From contig JAJECO010000048.1 of NCBI GenBank assembly GCA_022822005.1, positions 1 through 64,000 of the forward strand: 64,000 bases of DNA, written 5' to 3'. This stretch comes from Candidatus Poribacteria bacterium. Lineage in GTDB: Bacteria > Poribacteria > WGA-4E > PCPOR2b. The position numbers and the translations under genes are program-made. The notes below the pieces were generated by a model. That model had not been told where the DNA came from. It saw nothing but the letters and a program-made list of their open reading frames with translations, and did no database searches. Positions 2 through 50,282 of the stretch are shown here, one piece after another; positions within the stretch are counted from its first letter, which is position 1, and each line of letters starts with the position of its first letter.

Positions 2-454
2 GTCCTTAAACGGGGTGCCAAACTACATTGGGTCAATGCGGATCCCAACGCGAAGGCAAAAGAGATGAATCACCGATTCTTCGCCCATTGGATTCGTTGG
101 TCCCCAAATGGGAAACGGACAATTGTCCGCGGGGCGATAGAGGAAAGGGGAAGGCAGGGATTATTTCTCGGTGATGCATTAGCCCGAAATCTAGTTCGCC
201 TTAATGATGAGGCGAGTCCGGGCTGGGGACAATGGTTACCGGACAATAAGCATATTGTCGGTCCGGGGGGCGTAGACGGCCGTTCCGATGTCCTCGTAAT
301 GAATGTCGACACCGAAGAAGTTCAGCGTTTAACCGACGATGGTCGGAGCAGGTTTGTCTTTTGGCACGACTCCCCGCTTGCGGTGGAAACTGCGGGGAAG
401 CTATCGACGTCTTGGGGGGCAATCAAAAAGCAAGTTATAGACATCAATAGGTAA
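2..454 (+). CDS. C-terminal part of a TolB/PD40-type beta-propeller protein
   Basis: The frame is open from the window edge and has no start codon before residue 22, so the gene begins upstream and about 150 residues are visible. Blade-like repeats of the PD40/WD40-like kind can be read (WSPNGKRT near residue 35, WLPDNKHIVG near residue 79), each followed by a strand and a turn. PD40 repeats form beta-propellers, as in TolB, usually in secreted or periplasmic proteins. The protein ends with GKLSTSWGAIKK and seven more residues, the same tail found on the four LamG proteins at 46.5-50.3 kb. Its partner or substrate cannot be told from this fragment. Confidence 0.7.
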   Translation, partial: VLKRGAKLHWVNADPNAKAKEMNHRFFAHWIRWSPNGKRTIVRGAIEERGRQGLFLGDALARNLVRLNDEASPGWGQWLPDNKHIVGPGGVDGRSDVLVMNVDTEEVQRLTDDGRSRFVFWHDSPLAVETAGKLSTSWGAIKKQVIDINR

Positions 455-46503: not shown

Positions 46504-47355
46504 TCACTGTGCCTTTACTCGTGCCCAAGTTGTTGTCAGTTTGTCAGTTGGCTCAACAGATAACTTGCCTGTGATGTTTTGGAGAAGCTCGTCTCGGCTT
46601 AACGGTCTGTCGTAAATACGAAGGATAGCGATTGAACCGTTGAAGTTTCGATCTCTATCATGAGAAGTAAATATTGAAAGCCACATAGGCTCTTCGGGAT
46701 CGAAATCTTGATCCATCTCAACCATCCCAACCTTTTCACCATCTTGGTAGGTTTCAACTGATTTTTGATTGGTAAAAACAAACGCAATCCAATGCCACTC
46801 CTTCTTCTTAATGTCAATGCCGAGATCTTCCGGGATTAGCCATTTGCCTTTGTTATTAGCTCTACCCTTAAATCTTGCGATGAGTTCACCGGTATCTGGC
46901 CCGTTGAGAGAAACTTGAAACTGTTGCAATTCTCTGTCACGCGCCCTAAATCCAAGAACTTGGGAGGCAACAACGAGATCGGGCCATTTGGGCCCGTTGC
47001 GTCTGATGAGCACCTCCATCGTCCAATCTTCAAGTTCCATTTTGGGTACTAGATCGGGAGGTCCCCCAAAAGTCTCAGACTTTCGCGTGGCGGTATACCA
47101 TTTTGCGTCCTCATTGATACCGAGTGCGGGTATTCTGATTTTTCCCTCTTCAAATTCAGGCACTTCATCGTTGGCGGGCATTTTTCCGCCAGCTACGCCG
47201 AGATTTCTCCAAACAATCTCCCGCCTATTCTGTTCGCTGGCATCGAGATGGATTATCGCACCGGGGAGAACCTTCTTTTGCGCTGTGGTAGGAAAACAGG
47301 TAAGTCCTAACACGAAAACCACACTGAAAACTGCAATTCTGTTTATATACTTCAT
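46504..47355 (-). CDS. Secreted LamG-domain protein with KLTTTW-type tail
   Basis: A 283-residue protein of the LamG/concanavalin-like jelly-roll fold. AAGGGA nine bases before ATG 47355 fixes the start; a signal peptide (INRIAVFSVVFVLGL, cleavage after TTAQ) follows. WTMEVLIRRNG, HWIAFVFTNQKSVETYQDGEKVG and NGSIAILRIYDRPLS are LamG strands. The tail reads LSVEPTDKLTTTWARVKAQ, the tag shared by its neighbours. LamG domains bind carbohydrates or proteins, usually outside the cell. It is the last of three same-direction LamG genes and the most diverged. Confidence 0.8.
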   Translation of the reverse strand: MKYINRIAVFSVVFVLGLTCFPTTAQKKVLPGAIIHLDASEQNRREIVWRNLGVAGGKMPANDEVPEFEEGKIRIPALGINEDAKWYTATRKSETFGGPPDLVPKMELEDWTMEVLIRRNGPKWPDLVVASQVLGFRARDRELQQFQVSLNGPDTGELIARFKGRANNKGKWLIPEDLGIDIKKKEWHWIAFVFTNQKSVETYQDGEKVGMVEMDQDFDPEEPMWLSIFTSHDRDRNFNGSIAILRIYDRPLSRDELLQNITGKLSVEPTDKLTTTWARVKAQ

Positions 47356-47387
47356 TTGGAAATATCCCTTTGGCTGACGAATGGGGA

Positions 47388-48227
47388 TTAATGGTTCTTT
47401 TTGATCGTAGCCCATGAGGTGGCAAGCTTCCCTGATGGAGAAACTGCAAAGATTGCTATATCAAGTCCTTTTCCAAGCTGCTTTACATCAGCATCACTCA
47501 ATGCAACATTGAAGATCGCAAGTTCGTCGATGAGACTCTTACTGAACGAGTCAAAACGCGCTGGCAATAATGCACCGATGTACATCGGCTGTCCCAGTGG
47601 GGGTGCCAATCCCATCTTCTTCACCCCATCGCCGTGTTCAACAGGCTTCGACTCGCCATCAATATAAAGCGTTGGTGCCCTCTCTCCATCCTTGGCAACA
47701 ACAACATAGTGATGCCACTGATCGTCCTTTATACCGCTGGCACCCTGAAATCCATTTTCATACCAGAAATAAAACATATTATCAAAAACTTTGTGGAGTG
47801 CAATGCCGTATCCCGCGCCGTGCCACTGCCATTCTCCGCCTCTATGTATAATAAAATAAGGTGCAACATCGGTCGCTTGTAGCCGTGGAGGTCGTTTCAC
47901 CCAAACTGAAATAGAGATGACATCCTCAAGGTTTAAGCCCACATCGTCCGGCACTTCCAAGTAGTTTTTTCGGGTGTCACTAAACTCTATTGCCCTACCG
48001 AATTTCCCGTCAACCAGCGCGGGTTTATTTATCAATTTCGCGTTATGACCGTTGCCTGTAATATCTGGGATCCCCTTCATGCCAGCCTCTTCGAAGGTCC
48101 ATATTGCAACAGCTTTCTCCAGAAATTTGCGTCCTGTCAATTGTGCATCACTTACTAGCGTGAACTCCAAATTCAAAATGAGTAAACTCAGAATAATTGA
48201 TATAAATTTTGCTGCAGAGATTCTCAT
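47388..48227 (-). CDS. Secreted LamG-domain protein with KLATSW-type tail
   Basis: A 279-residue protein with a signal peptide (AAKFISIILSLLILNLEF, ending near VSDAQ). The jelly-roll core includes AVAIWTFEEAG, NYLEVPDDVGLNLEDVISISVWVKRP, DDQWHHYVVVAKDGER and ALLPARFDSFSKSLIDELAIFNVALS. The C-terminus is AVSPSGKLATSWATIKKNH. It is a close paralogue of the protein at 48254, sharing whole segments such as SVWVKRPPRLQATD, so the two arose by tandem duplication. It could bind sponge or algal polysaccharide, but that is a guess. Confidence 0.82.
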   Translation of the reverse strand: MRISAAKFISIILSLLILNLEFTLVSDAQLTGRKFLEKAVAIWTFEEAGMKGIPDITGNGHNAKLINKPALVDGKFGRAIEFSDTRKNYLEVPDDVGLNLEDVISISVWVKRPPRLQATDVAPYFIIHRGGEWQWHGAGYGIALHKVFDNMFYFWYENGFQGASGIKDDQWHHYVVVAKDGERAPTLYIDGESKPVEHGDGVKKMGLAPPLGQPMYIGALLPARFDSFSKSLIDELAIFNVALSDADVKQLGKGLDIAIFAVSPSGKLATSWATIKKNH

Positions 48228-48253
48228 GATTCAATAGTTCCTTCTTCGCCAAC

Positions 48254-49108
48254 TCATCGAGTCTGTTTCAGTATTGCCCACGTTGTGGCAAGTTTGCCCG
48301 ATGGAGAAACCGCGAAAATTGAGTTATCAACCCCTTTCCCAAGCCGTTCAACATCAGCTTGACTCAACGCAACGTTGAAGATGGCAAGATCATCTATGGT
48401 GTTATTAGACCACGAATCAAATCGCTCGGGGAATACCGCTCCAATATGTAGTGCACGTCCCGGTGAGGGTTCCAAGGCAATCACTCGCTGACCATCGCGA
48501 TGTTCAACCTCTTTTAATTCCCCATCAATATACATGGACGGATCTCTCTCCCTATCTTTAGCAACTACAACGTAATGATGCCACTGATCATCTTTTATCC
48601 CGTTTACTCCTTGGAATCCACCTTGATACCAGAAATAGAACATGTTGTTAAAAACCTTATGCAGCGCTATTCCAAAAGTGGGGCGCCCGTGCTGCCATTC
48701 TCCACCTTTTTCAAGAATAAAATAGGGAGCGATATCGGTTGCTTGCAAGCGAGGCGGCCTTTTCACCCAGACTGAAATCGAAATGGCTTCATCAAGATCG
48801 AAATCCTCATGGTGTGGCACTTCCAAGTAATTTTTTCTGCCGGAATTAAACTCTACCGCTTTACCGAATTGCCCATCAACCAGTGCAGGCTTATTCACCA
48901 TCACCGCGTCATGACCGTTTCCAGAAACGTCCTCGACAAAAGGATCGTTATCCTTATTTCTTTCCGTCCTATCAAAAGTCCATATTGCAACCGCTGCTTC
49001 TAGAAGCTCAGGCCCTGTCAATCGGGCATGGATCGTACCTGCCAACACCCAGTTCATGATAATTAAACCGAGTACAATCCTGCCCAACCCCGTGATGAAG
49101 GTCTTCAT
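48254..49108 (-). CDS. Secreted LamG-domain protein with KLATTW-type tail
   Basis: A 284-residue paralogue of the protein at 47388, 26 bases apart, in the same direction. Signal peptide ITGLGRIVLGLIIMNWVL ends near TIHA. LamG features are FDRTERN, VEDVSGNGHDAVM, SVWVKRPPRLQATD and NNTIDDLAIFNVALSQADV. The C-terminus is AVSPSGKLATTWAILKQTR. AAGGAGGCG lies just before the ATG. Two such proteins side by side, with a third downstream, indicate repeated gene duplication in this locus. Confidence 0.82.
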   Translation of the reverse strand: MKTFITGLGRIVLGLIIMNWVLAGTIHARLTGPELLEAAVAIWTFDRTERNKDNDPFVEDVSGNGHDAVMVNKPALVDGQFGKAVEFNSGRKNYLEVPHHEDFDLDEAISISVWVKRPPRLQATDIAPYFILEKGGEWQHGRPTFGIALHKVFNNMFYFWYQGGFQGVNGIKDDQWHHYVVVAKDRERDPSMYIDGELKEVEHRDGQRVIALEPSPGRALHIGAVFPERFDSWSNNTIDDLAIFNVALSQADVERLGKGVDNSIFAVSPSGKLATTWAILKQTR

Positions 49109-49241
49109 TTAAATCGCCTCCTTGCCATCATTTTTCTGGTCCCCTGGAAAGTATACAGCCACACATCAATGCGAGTTTGATTGCCTTTACAGTGTATCCA
49201 GAAAAGGATTGGATGTCAACGCAAAAATGAATTCTTTGCGC

Positions 49242-49271
49242 TTGACTTGTTTAGCAGAAAAATGTTAATAT
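49242..49271 (+). promoter_or_regulatory. Promoter of the forward LamG gene
   Basis: TTGACT (49242-49247) and TAATAT (49266-49271) are 18 bases apart in the 373-base gap between the divergent LamG genes. The leader to the ATG at 49482 is about 200 bases; the rest of the gap shows no gene. Confidence 0.5.
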
Positions 49272-49481
49272 GTTTATGTTACCAAAACTGACTTTCCACA
49301 GGCTCTCCGAATCCTACAACGTTACATGAAAATTGGATGCAGTTGTAGATCAGTTTTCTAACTTGACTACAACTTCTGCGCGACTGAAGTAGACTCAGAT
49401 AGGAGCTTGGTCTACCGTCGTGGAATTTCTTGCAACAGCTCATCAGAGTCCAAAACCCATATTATAAGGAAGGATATTACG

Positions 49482-50282
49482 ATGAAAAAAGGGCGATTAA
49501 TCTCCATAGCCTTAGTTCTTGTATTTGCGTTCTCACTAACACAAGTGGTTTTTGCTGCGCCAAAGAACTTCGCACTCAAGTTTGATGCAAAAAAGGATAG
49601 CGGTGAAAAAGGAACACGGGTCATTGTTGACCATAGCGAAGAGCTGAACCTCGCAGAGAAGTTAACGATCGAAGCATGGATTTACGCCACTGCCTTAGAT
49701 TCCGGCGGCGGAAGAATGATGATTACTGGAAAAGCAGATACATGGATGCATGCTCTGCTCAATGATGGGGGTGCTTATCAAGGAGCGGTCAATGCCGCTC
49801 AGTGGAGTTGGCAAGGATCCGGCAAGGTAAGCTTGGAGAGATGGACACATGTTGCGCTGTCCTTCGATGGTCGTGCCTACCTTCTCCACGTTGACGGTAA
49901 GTTGAAAGATGAAATTGAAGATCCAGGGAAGATTAACACATCTTTATCCGATGTTTATATCGGTTGGCTTCCTCAGTGGAATGAAGCGTTTACCGGGCTA
50001 ATCGATGAGGTCCGAATTTCTAACATTCCAAGATACCCCGCGGCCAACTTTCCGAGACCGACGACCGAGTTCGAAGAACGGGATCGCAATACCGTTCTCC
50101 TCATGCACTTTAATGAGGGACAAGGTGGAGAAGCTAAGGATGCCTCCGCTTTTGAGCATCACGGCTTAATTGATACTGCGACATGGGAAGAGGTGGATGA
50201 TGCCCCCTTTAAACCGTTAGCGGTCGAGCCAGGCGTAGGCAAGTTATCAACTACATGGGGCAAACTCAAGCGTAACTATTAA
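49482..50282 (+). CDS. Secreted LamG-domain protein with KLSTTW-type tail
   Basis: A 266-residue protein divergent from the other three LamG genes. AAGGAAGGA eight bases upstream of ATG 49482 fixes the start. Signal peptide LISIALVLVFAFSLTQVVFA is followed by a jelly-roll: FALKFDAKKD, LTIEAWIYATALDSGG, RWTHVALSFDGRAYLLHVDGK and FTGLIDEVRISNIPRYPAANF. The tail is AVEPGVGKLSTTWGKLKRNY. The core belongs to another LamG branch than its neighbours, yet keeps the same tail, which argues that the tail has its own function. Confidence 0.82.
   Translation: MKKGRLISIALVLVFAFSLTQVVFAAPKNFALKFDAKKDSGEKGTRVIVDHSEELNLAEKLTIEAWIYATALDSGGGRMMITGKADTWMHALLNDGGAYQGAVNAAQWSWQGSGKVSLERWTHVALSFDGRAYLLHVDGKLKDEIEDPGKINTSLSDVYIGWLPQWNEAFTGLIDEVRISNIPRYPAANFPRPTTEFEERDRNTVLLMHFNEGQGGEAKDASAFEHHGLIDTATWEEVDDAPFKPLAVEPGVGKLSTTWGKLKRNY

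Follow-up and report, generated by a model that had tools for sequence, protein, structure and literature searches.

A C-terminal tag on exported proteins of Poribacteria, a candidate minimal sorting signal of the type IX kind

Why do four neighbouring LamG proteins of a Poribacterium end with the same short motif? The original prediction, made on the DNA stretch analysed here (the window, 64,000 nucleotides in length), quoted the tails of the genes at 46504, 47388, 48254 and 49482 and proposed a sorting or attachment signal on otherwise unrelated secreted proteins. All four tails are present exactly as quoted. The tag follows the consensus [AP]V[ED][PA]x[GD]KL[ATS]TTW[GA]x[LI]K, succeeded by 1-12 residues, with KLxTTWGxLK as a shorter form, and has a length of approximately 14 residues (range 13-18). 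In the 49482 tail, one additional residue is found between AVEP and GKL. Five proteins of the window carry the tag at their C-terminus:

46504..47355, minus strand: exported LamG (PF13385) protein with C-terminal tag; tail DKLTTTWARVKAQ, tag SVEPTDKLTTTWARVKAQ, tag core at 46513-46545 (minus strand)
47388..48227, minus strand: exported LamG protein with tag; tail GKLATSWATIKKNH, tag AVSPSGKLATSWATIKKNH, tag core at 47400-47432 (minus strand)
48254..49108, minus strand: exported LamG protein with tag; tail GKLATTWAILKQTR, tag AVSPSGKLATTWAILKQTR, tag core at 48266-48298 (minus strand)
49482..50282, plus strand: exported LamG protein with tag; tail GKLSTTWGKLKRNY, tag AVEPGVGKLSTTWGKLKRNY, tag core at 50238-50270 (plus strand)
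2..454, plus strand: 3' part of a PD40/TolB-like propeller protein; tail GKLSTSWGAIKKQVIDINR, tag AVETAGKLSTSWGAIKKQVIDINR, tag core at 395-427 (plus strand)

The longest ORF of gene 46504 extends to 47415, and the start at 47355 (MKYINR) yields a signal peptide. The 5' end of gene 2..454 is cut by the contig end; a full-length paralogue on contig C70 comprises 324 aa and has a signal peptide. The four longer proteins of the window all show a signal-peptide-like segment at the N-terminus and all contain Laminin_G_3 (PF13385; E-values from 1e-10 to 8e-20). Because they share this domain, the four by themselves do not show unrelatedness, and the motif might simply be the strand or helix that closes their LamG fold, kept by common descent. 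LamG also accounts for 132 of 187 tagged proteins, more than any other family. However, genome-wide the tag is found in 24 unrelated body families, i.e., 23 clusters besides LamG, including CBM9, discoidin, PD40, LTD and others, such that the term "otherwise unrelated" is justified for the genome-wide set and not for the four neighbours. In the AlphaFold model of the 48254..49108 protein, a confident jelly roll covers residues 39-257, while the tail (268-284) lies outside it at pLDDT <50; in the models of two unrelated families, the tag is not part of the fold. When an unrelated tagged family is compared with LamG proteins by BLAST, the alignment covers mainly the region of the tag. The tag is thus neither restricted to related LamG proteins nor contained in their fold; the 24 body clusters and the separate tail refute its interpretation as a fold element, for which we see practically no chance.

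The position of the tag is strictly kept, with a distance of 1-12 residues to the stop in 201 out of 201 distinct ORFs. It is preceded by a short Gly-rich linker and ends with basic residues, and no hydrophobic segment was found before or after the motif in the tagged proteins. A signal peptide is predicted for 182 of 187 tagged proteins (173 of 179 under a stricter rule). Classified by rule, 96.6% of the tagged ORFs are predicted to be exported and soluble, versus 36% of their untagged neighbours (Fisher p 4e-52). With about 97% predicted export, the tag is not a mark of cytoplasmic proteins, and the idea of a sorting or attachment signal gains support from the 24 unrelated bodies, the signal peptides (97% versus 36%) and the same tail across the related genomes. 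Lipoproteins were considered and rejected, as a lipobox-like motif occurs in only 4 of 182 proteins. The modelled tail, a low-confidence short helix, also brought to mind the encapsulation peptides of bacterial microcompartments; this was rejected because the tagged proteins bear export signals.

Being short, unfolded in the models and close to the free C-terminus, the tag could also be read within the periplasm, by a chaperone or protease instead of an outer-membrane exporter, and would then serve retention, quality control or turnover. PDZ or Tsp-type proteins of the periplasm likewise bind short peptides located near a free C-terminus. But the distance to the stop varies between 1 and 12 residues, so that recognition does not depend on the free C-terminus. 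Moreover, lectin-like or carbohydrate-binding modules, whose site of action is expected to be extracellular, make up many of the tagged bodies, and the tag is also found on large multi-domain proteins. We regard a periplasmic role as improbable.

The tag is specific to the phylum Poribacteria and present throughout it. A strict DNA pattern detects 3,051 copies in 84 of 85 Poribacteria genomes (median 39 per genome) and none in 302 genomes of other phyla. A chance origin of these matches is excluded, since the reversed pattern yields 0 matches over the 85 genomes, and 0 against 12 strict matches in the 6.0-Mb genome to which the window belongs. Among the matches listed from a collection of 84,980 species, 116 out of 118 are titled Poribacteria. 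One genome, G009, was considered as a tagless natural knock-out and rejected as such: it has a drifted tag (e.g., KLASTW or KLTSTW) within one to two base changes.

Which machinery might recognise the tag? A known transmembrane C-terminal sorting system, either PEP-CTERM/exosortase or LPXTG/sortase, would share with the tag its position, the breadth of bodies and the basic residues at the end. Against this stand the missing hydrophobic segment and the lack of any NCBIfam match to the tag. Furthermore, neither exosortase (PF09721) nor sortase (PF04203) was detected in 14 representative genomes (0/14 each), while the positive controls matched. Both enzymes are therefore refuted as tag readers in these 14 genomes, exosortase also for want of a hydrophobic segment and sortase for want of a transmembrane helix, and such a system as a whole is very improbable.

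The situation is different for type IX secretion (T9SS). A survey from 2014 found Por-type tails in Poribacteria and reported the Por secretion genes missing (PMC3909097); apart from this negative statement, no paper connecting Poribacteria with T9SS or with a tag of this sort was found in the open literature searched. Unlike that report, we observe putative SprA-, PorU- and PorV-like genes, recognised by sequence similarity, in nearly every genome. An SprA-like homologue occurs in 84 of 85 genomes, below the curated cut-off in every genome except G006, whose protein matches SprA 6h3i at 8e-31. The copy in the window's own genome scores 148 bits against a cut-off of 200 (NCBIfam E-value 1.5e-43), and a profile of the SprA-like proteins retrieved no SprA chain from the PDB. 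A C25/PorU-like protein is found in 84 of 85 genomes; the own copy reaches 414.5 bits versus the PorU cut-off of 420 and contains GHG and TTCLNGQFD. The PorV family lies above cut-off in all 85 genomes, with 8-24 copies each. GldM was found in none of 14 genomes, and in none of the control genomes either. Type A tails are present in all 85 genomes (9-59 scored per genome), on proteins other than the tagged ones. Since nearly every genome of the phylum has both the tag and the machinery, their co-occurrence cannot discriminate between explanations. No tag gene adjoined an SprA-like gene in the regions examined, and none of the most frequent gene families neighbouring tag genes, unannotated and inspected by eye, resembled a processing enzyme.

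A further hint comes from a pre-terminal FN3-like module. In 46 of 50 Poribacteria copies it is followed directly by the tag, and in Flammeovirga and Hymenobacter by a type A domain. The tag hence appears to sit exactly where the Bacteroidota homologues have the type A domain.

Implementing these observations, we lean towards the tag as a phylum-specific C-terminal sorting signal that acts as a minimal T9SS-type signal. A predicted N-terminal Sec signal peptide would take the tagged proteins across the inner membrane. In the periplasm, the SprA-like translocon of Poribacteria and a carrier of the PorV family would recognise the unfolded tag of about 14 residues as a minimal signal of the type IX kind. 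They would carry the protein across the outer membrane, and it would be released at the surface. More speculatively, the PorU-like C25 enzyme might instead cut and attach it. For the type IX link itself, comprising PorV/SprA recognition, outer-membrane crossing and surface location, our confidence is just over even. A short signal is plausible for T9SS, since the last 22 residues of HBP35 and domains of 40-51 aa in P. intermedia serve as signals (PMC11969387), but the tag has less than half the length of the shortest known CTDs (40-51 aa).

Alternatively, the tag may direct sorting or anchoring by way of a dedicated receptor or processing enzyme of Poribacteria, e.g., a surface scaffold or an outer-membrane receptor, that is not of type IX. 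Tag, position and export fit this equally well. The tag is unlike the type A domain, which the same genomes already use on many other proteins, and could for this reason belong to a separate machine; it is also confined to one phylum, while T9SS is more widespread. Parsimony argues against a dedicated system, as the phylum possesses a T9SS-like set with its 8-24 PorV-family carriers, and so does the module swap with Bacteroidota; no candidate receptor was found. We consider a dedicated receptor possible but rather unlikely. With evenly balanced confidence, the tag can be described as either the shortest type IX-style signal known, replacing a folded domain of 40-80 aa and read by a dedicated PorV subset, or a C-terminal sorting system that is wholly new, confined to the phylum and devoid of a membrane segment.

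Poribacteria, known mainly from sponges, rank among the most common symbionts of these animals. To our knowledge there is no cultured member, and their route into host tissue is therefore known from genomes only. The simple tag pattern provides a list of the candidate Poribacterial surface or secreted proteome, with dozens of proteins per genome and mostly lectin-like domains. If the type IX link is true, it shows how little such a signal requires; otherwise, a new sorting system awaits discovery.

Among known systems, PEP-CTERM/exosortase, GlyGly-CTERM/rhombosortase and MYXO-CTERM/myxosortase likewise mark dozens of exported, mutually unrelated proteins in each genome with a short C-terminal signature, and the MYXO-CTERM system of Myxococcota is also phylum-wide (PMC11980579). 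These signals consist of a motif, a membrane segment and a basic tail, whereas the tag has no membrane segment, and its logo, judged on the tag alone, shows no Cys, GlyGly or transmembrane helix. The L-x-T-T core resembles L-P-x-T-G of the sortase substrates superficially, again without a membrane anchor. Of the two likenesses initially suggested, PEP-CTERM is hence abandoned for lack of membrane segment and exosortase, and the Por/T9SS tail stays as the nearest in principle. Like the tag, the T9SS type A domain (TIGR04183/PF18962) is a modular C-terminal element that follows a linker, or the FN3-like module, on a wide variety of unrelated proteins that bear Sec signal peptides. Both also tolerate extra C-terminal residues (for T9SS signals, PMC11285876) and have a conserved lysine near the end; in T9SS signals, one near-invariant lysine there contacts PorV (PMC10994853). 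Nearly all Poribacteria genomes encode SprA/Sov-like (below cut-off except in G006), PorV-family and PorU-like proteins. The differences concern the domain itself: 13-18 residues versus 40-80 or more, a low-confidence unfolded tail in AlphaFold in place of a beta-sandwich, no GxY motif, no match to NCBIfam models including TIGR04183 even at E 10, and a conserved Trp in a TTW core confined to one phylum. The short T9SS CTDs of Prevotella intermedia represent reduced C-terminal signals beside long ones in one cell, as does the tag; they comprise 40-51 aa with motifs B, D and E and three beta-strands, and the tag reaches roughly one third of this length (PMC11969387).

The four longer tagged genes of the window (at 46504, 47388, 48254 and 49482) end exactly as quoted when their shared tail, [GD]KL[AST]T[ST]W[AG]x[ILV]K, was first noted. 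The truncated gene 2-454 adds a fifth tagged end, with the terminal residues GKLSTSWGAIKKQVIDINR. All four longer proteins carry Laminin_G_3, so common descent alone could explain their shared tail. A degenerate DNA pattern for [GDE]KL[AST]T[ST]W[AG]x[ILVMF]K was applied to the own genome (G000; 6.0 Mb, 97 contigs), in which the window is C60:1-64000. It gave 12 matches, every one at an ORF end, and the reversed pattern gave none. Ahead of these ends stand LamG bodies, a PD40 propeller, further beta-sandwich-like bodies and some with no family assignment. In the public collection, the closest relatives are titled Candidatus Poribacteria; among the matches listed, a PCPOR2b locus (L106) is 87% identical to the 48254 protein.

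With a nearly identical pattern, 3,051 matches were counted over 85 genomes of the phylum, 84 of which are positive (median 39, maximum 75 per genome); a reversed control pattern gave 0 in every one. The sole genome without a strict match is G009, whose tag has drifted: its KLASTW and KLTSTW copies lie one or two bases from the pattern. On a wider genome set, a slightly looser pattern was found in none of 302 genomes of other phyla and in the same 84 phylum genomes. A scan of 84,980 species returned at least 118 stretches, with 116 of 118 among the matches listed titled Poribacteria, a match list that is no proof of absence elsewhere. One contig titled Pseudomonadota (sponge MAG RHO2_bin_21) encodes two adjoining tagged proteins (L062:912-3140, minus strand) near lon, nifS and a DppA-like gene. 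The bodies of both are similar to that of a tagged protein from Poribacteria (L072), the explanation being either transfer of the genes or chimerism of the contig. Two small contigs of a 1.7-Mb non-Poribacteria MAG (L275 on G154:C12, L276 on G154:C7) carry a protein with the FN3-like module described below and the tag, whose tail is nearly identical to that of its counterpart in the genome G052; they are probably misbinned.

In all 201 distinct tagged ORFs the tag core lies 1-12 residues before the stop, and internal copies were absent. The logo of a relaxed collection (n = 249) reads [LTF]-[AP]-V(94%)-[ED]-[PA]-x-[GD]-K(96%)-L(93%)-[ATS]-T(88%)-T(85%)-W-[GA]-x-[LI]-K, where W and the last K stand at 100% because both served to collect the sequences. 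A Gly-enriched linker precedes it and a short basic/polar tail follows. After removal of signal region and tag, 187 bodies fell into 24 BLAST clusters. LamG accounts for 132 bodies, and some clusters are named by Pfam as CBM9, F5/8 type C, PD40, ankyrin, LTD, DUF4960 or DUF3108-like. When the 24 representatives are aligned, the tag's K, W and K are the invariant columns. In the AlphaFold model of the 48254 protein (45 sequences; pLDDT 82.7, pTM 0.80), residues 39-257 form a confidently predicted domain and residues 268-284 stay below pLDDT 50; the tag of an unrelated family (L110; 277-297) likewise scored below 50. Export was judged by a home-made rule, not SignalP, which asks for an N-terminal signal-like segment and a cleavage-like site with no membrane helix further on. 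It predicts an exported, soluble product for 96.6% of the tagged ORFs (173 of 179) and for 36% of untagged neighbours (183 of 506; p 4e-52). Only 4 of 182 tagged proteins are lipoprotein-like. The variety of bodies, the predicted export and the recurrence of the tail across the related genomes support the original proposal of a sorting signal. We are highly confident that the tag serves exported proteins as a modular C-terminal sorting signal, phylum-specific as far as sampled.

No NCBIfam model matches the tag. Sortase and exosortase were each absent from 14 representative genomes, with control genomes positive. The own genome encodes the following relatives of type IX secretion (T9SS) genes:

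L202:7870-14382 (G000:C44), plus strand: SprA-like gene, 148 bits, E 1.5e-43, four matched stretches, curated cut-off 200
L203:13249-14370 (G000:C44), plus strand: PorV-like gene, PorV family
L204:3038-9376 (G000:C1), minus strand: PorU-like C25 peptidase, 2,112 aa, PorU 414.5 bits against a cut-off of 420

GHG and TTCLNGQFD are retained in the peptidase, whose own C-terminus is a type A tail, the ordinary T9SS sorting domain. Across the phylum, the PorV family (NF033709) occurs in 85 of 85 genomes (8-24 copies each), a ~2,200-aa relative of SprA/Sov in 84, C25 peptidases in 84 and type A tails (TIGR04183) in 85 (9-59 scored per genome). The 200-bit SprA cut-off is passed in G006 only, at about 506 bits, by a protein matching F. 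johnsoniae SprA (6h3i) at 8e-31. This clearly Bacteroidota-like SprA (G006:C30:1-5760, L209) shares only ~22% identity over aligned parts with the phylum's usual SprA-like protein. GldM gave no match in 14 genomes, nor in the control genomes. SprA-, PorU- and PorV-like genes are near-universal over the 85 genomes, in a phylum for which a 2014 single-cell study reported Por-type tails and found no structural Por-system genes (PMC3909097).

Directly upstream of a PorV-family gene, at least six genomes encode a ~990-aa protein ending GVYIYHVEARD...GNKIGRFAIIR (L203:10249-14370; also L176, L178-L181, L207), with no Pfam family and a faint PorZ tail match. G009 combines the most drifted tag with the phylum's weakest best PorV-family match (3.6e-39), a pairing that hints at co-drift but is confounded by overall divergence.

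Ordinary type A tails are in use alongside the tag in these cells, so the main rival view is that a second machine, separate from the T9SS-like one, handles the tag, which we consider possible but rather unlikely. We lean slightly towards a T9SS-like apparatus as the putative reader. A type IX signal need not be long: for HBP35 the final 22 residues are enough, and P. intermedia has signals of 40-51 aa (PMC11969387); such signals tolerate C-terminal extension (PMC11285876) and hold one near-invariant lysine near the end, contacting PorV (PMC10994853). Long Poribacterial proteins share a conserved FN3-like pre-terminal module, with the stop 10-17 residues behind it, and 45 of the 50 copies have the tag in between, with a KLTSTW variant in one more. 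Two such proteins (L252, L260) end instead in VDPFWWRNLN[QP], possibly another C-terminal signal. Exported proteins with a terminal dockerin-like repeat (NNDGTVNILDLVLVAQN; L236:2595-3395 and L240:3194-3997, both plus strand) are a further C-terminal class in Poribacteria. In Flammeovirga and Hymenobacter, a type A domain (PNP...GVYIV...K) comes immediately after the FN3-like module. The tag thus occupies the position of a type IX signal, and this module swap is the best, if circumstantial, evidence joining it to a T9SS-like machine.
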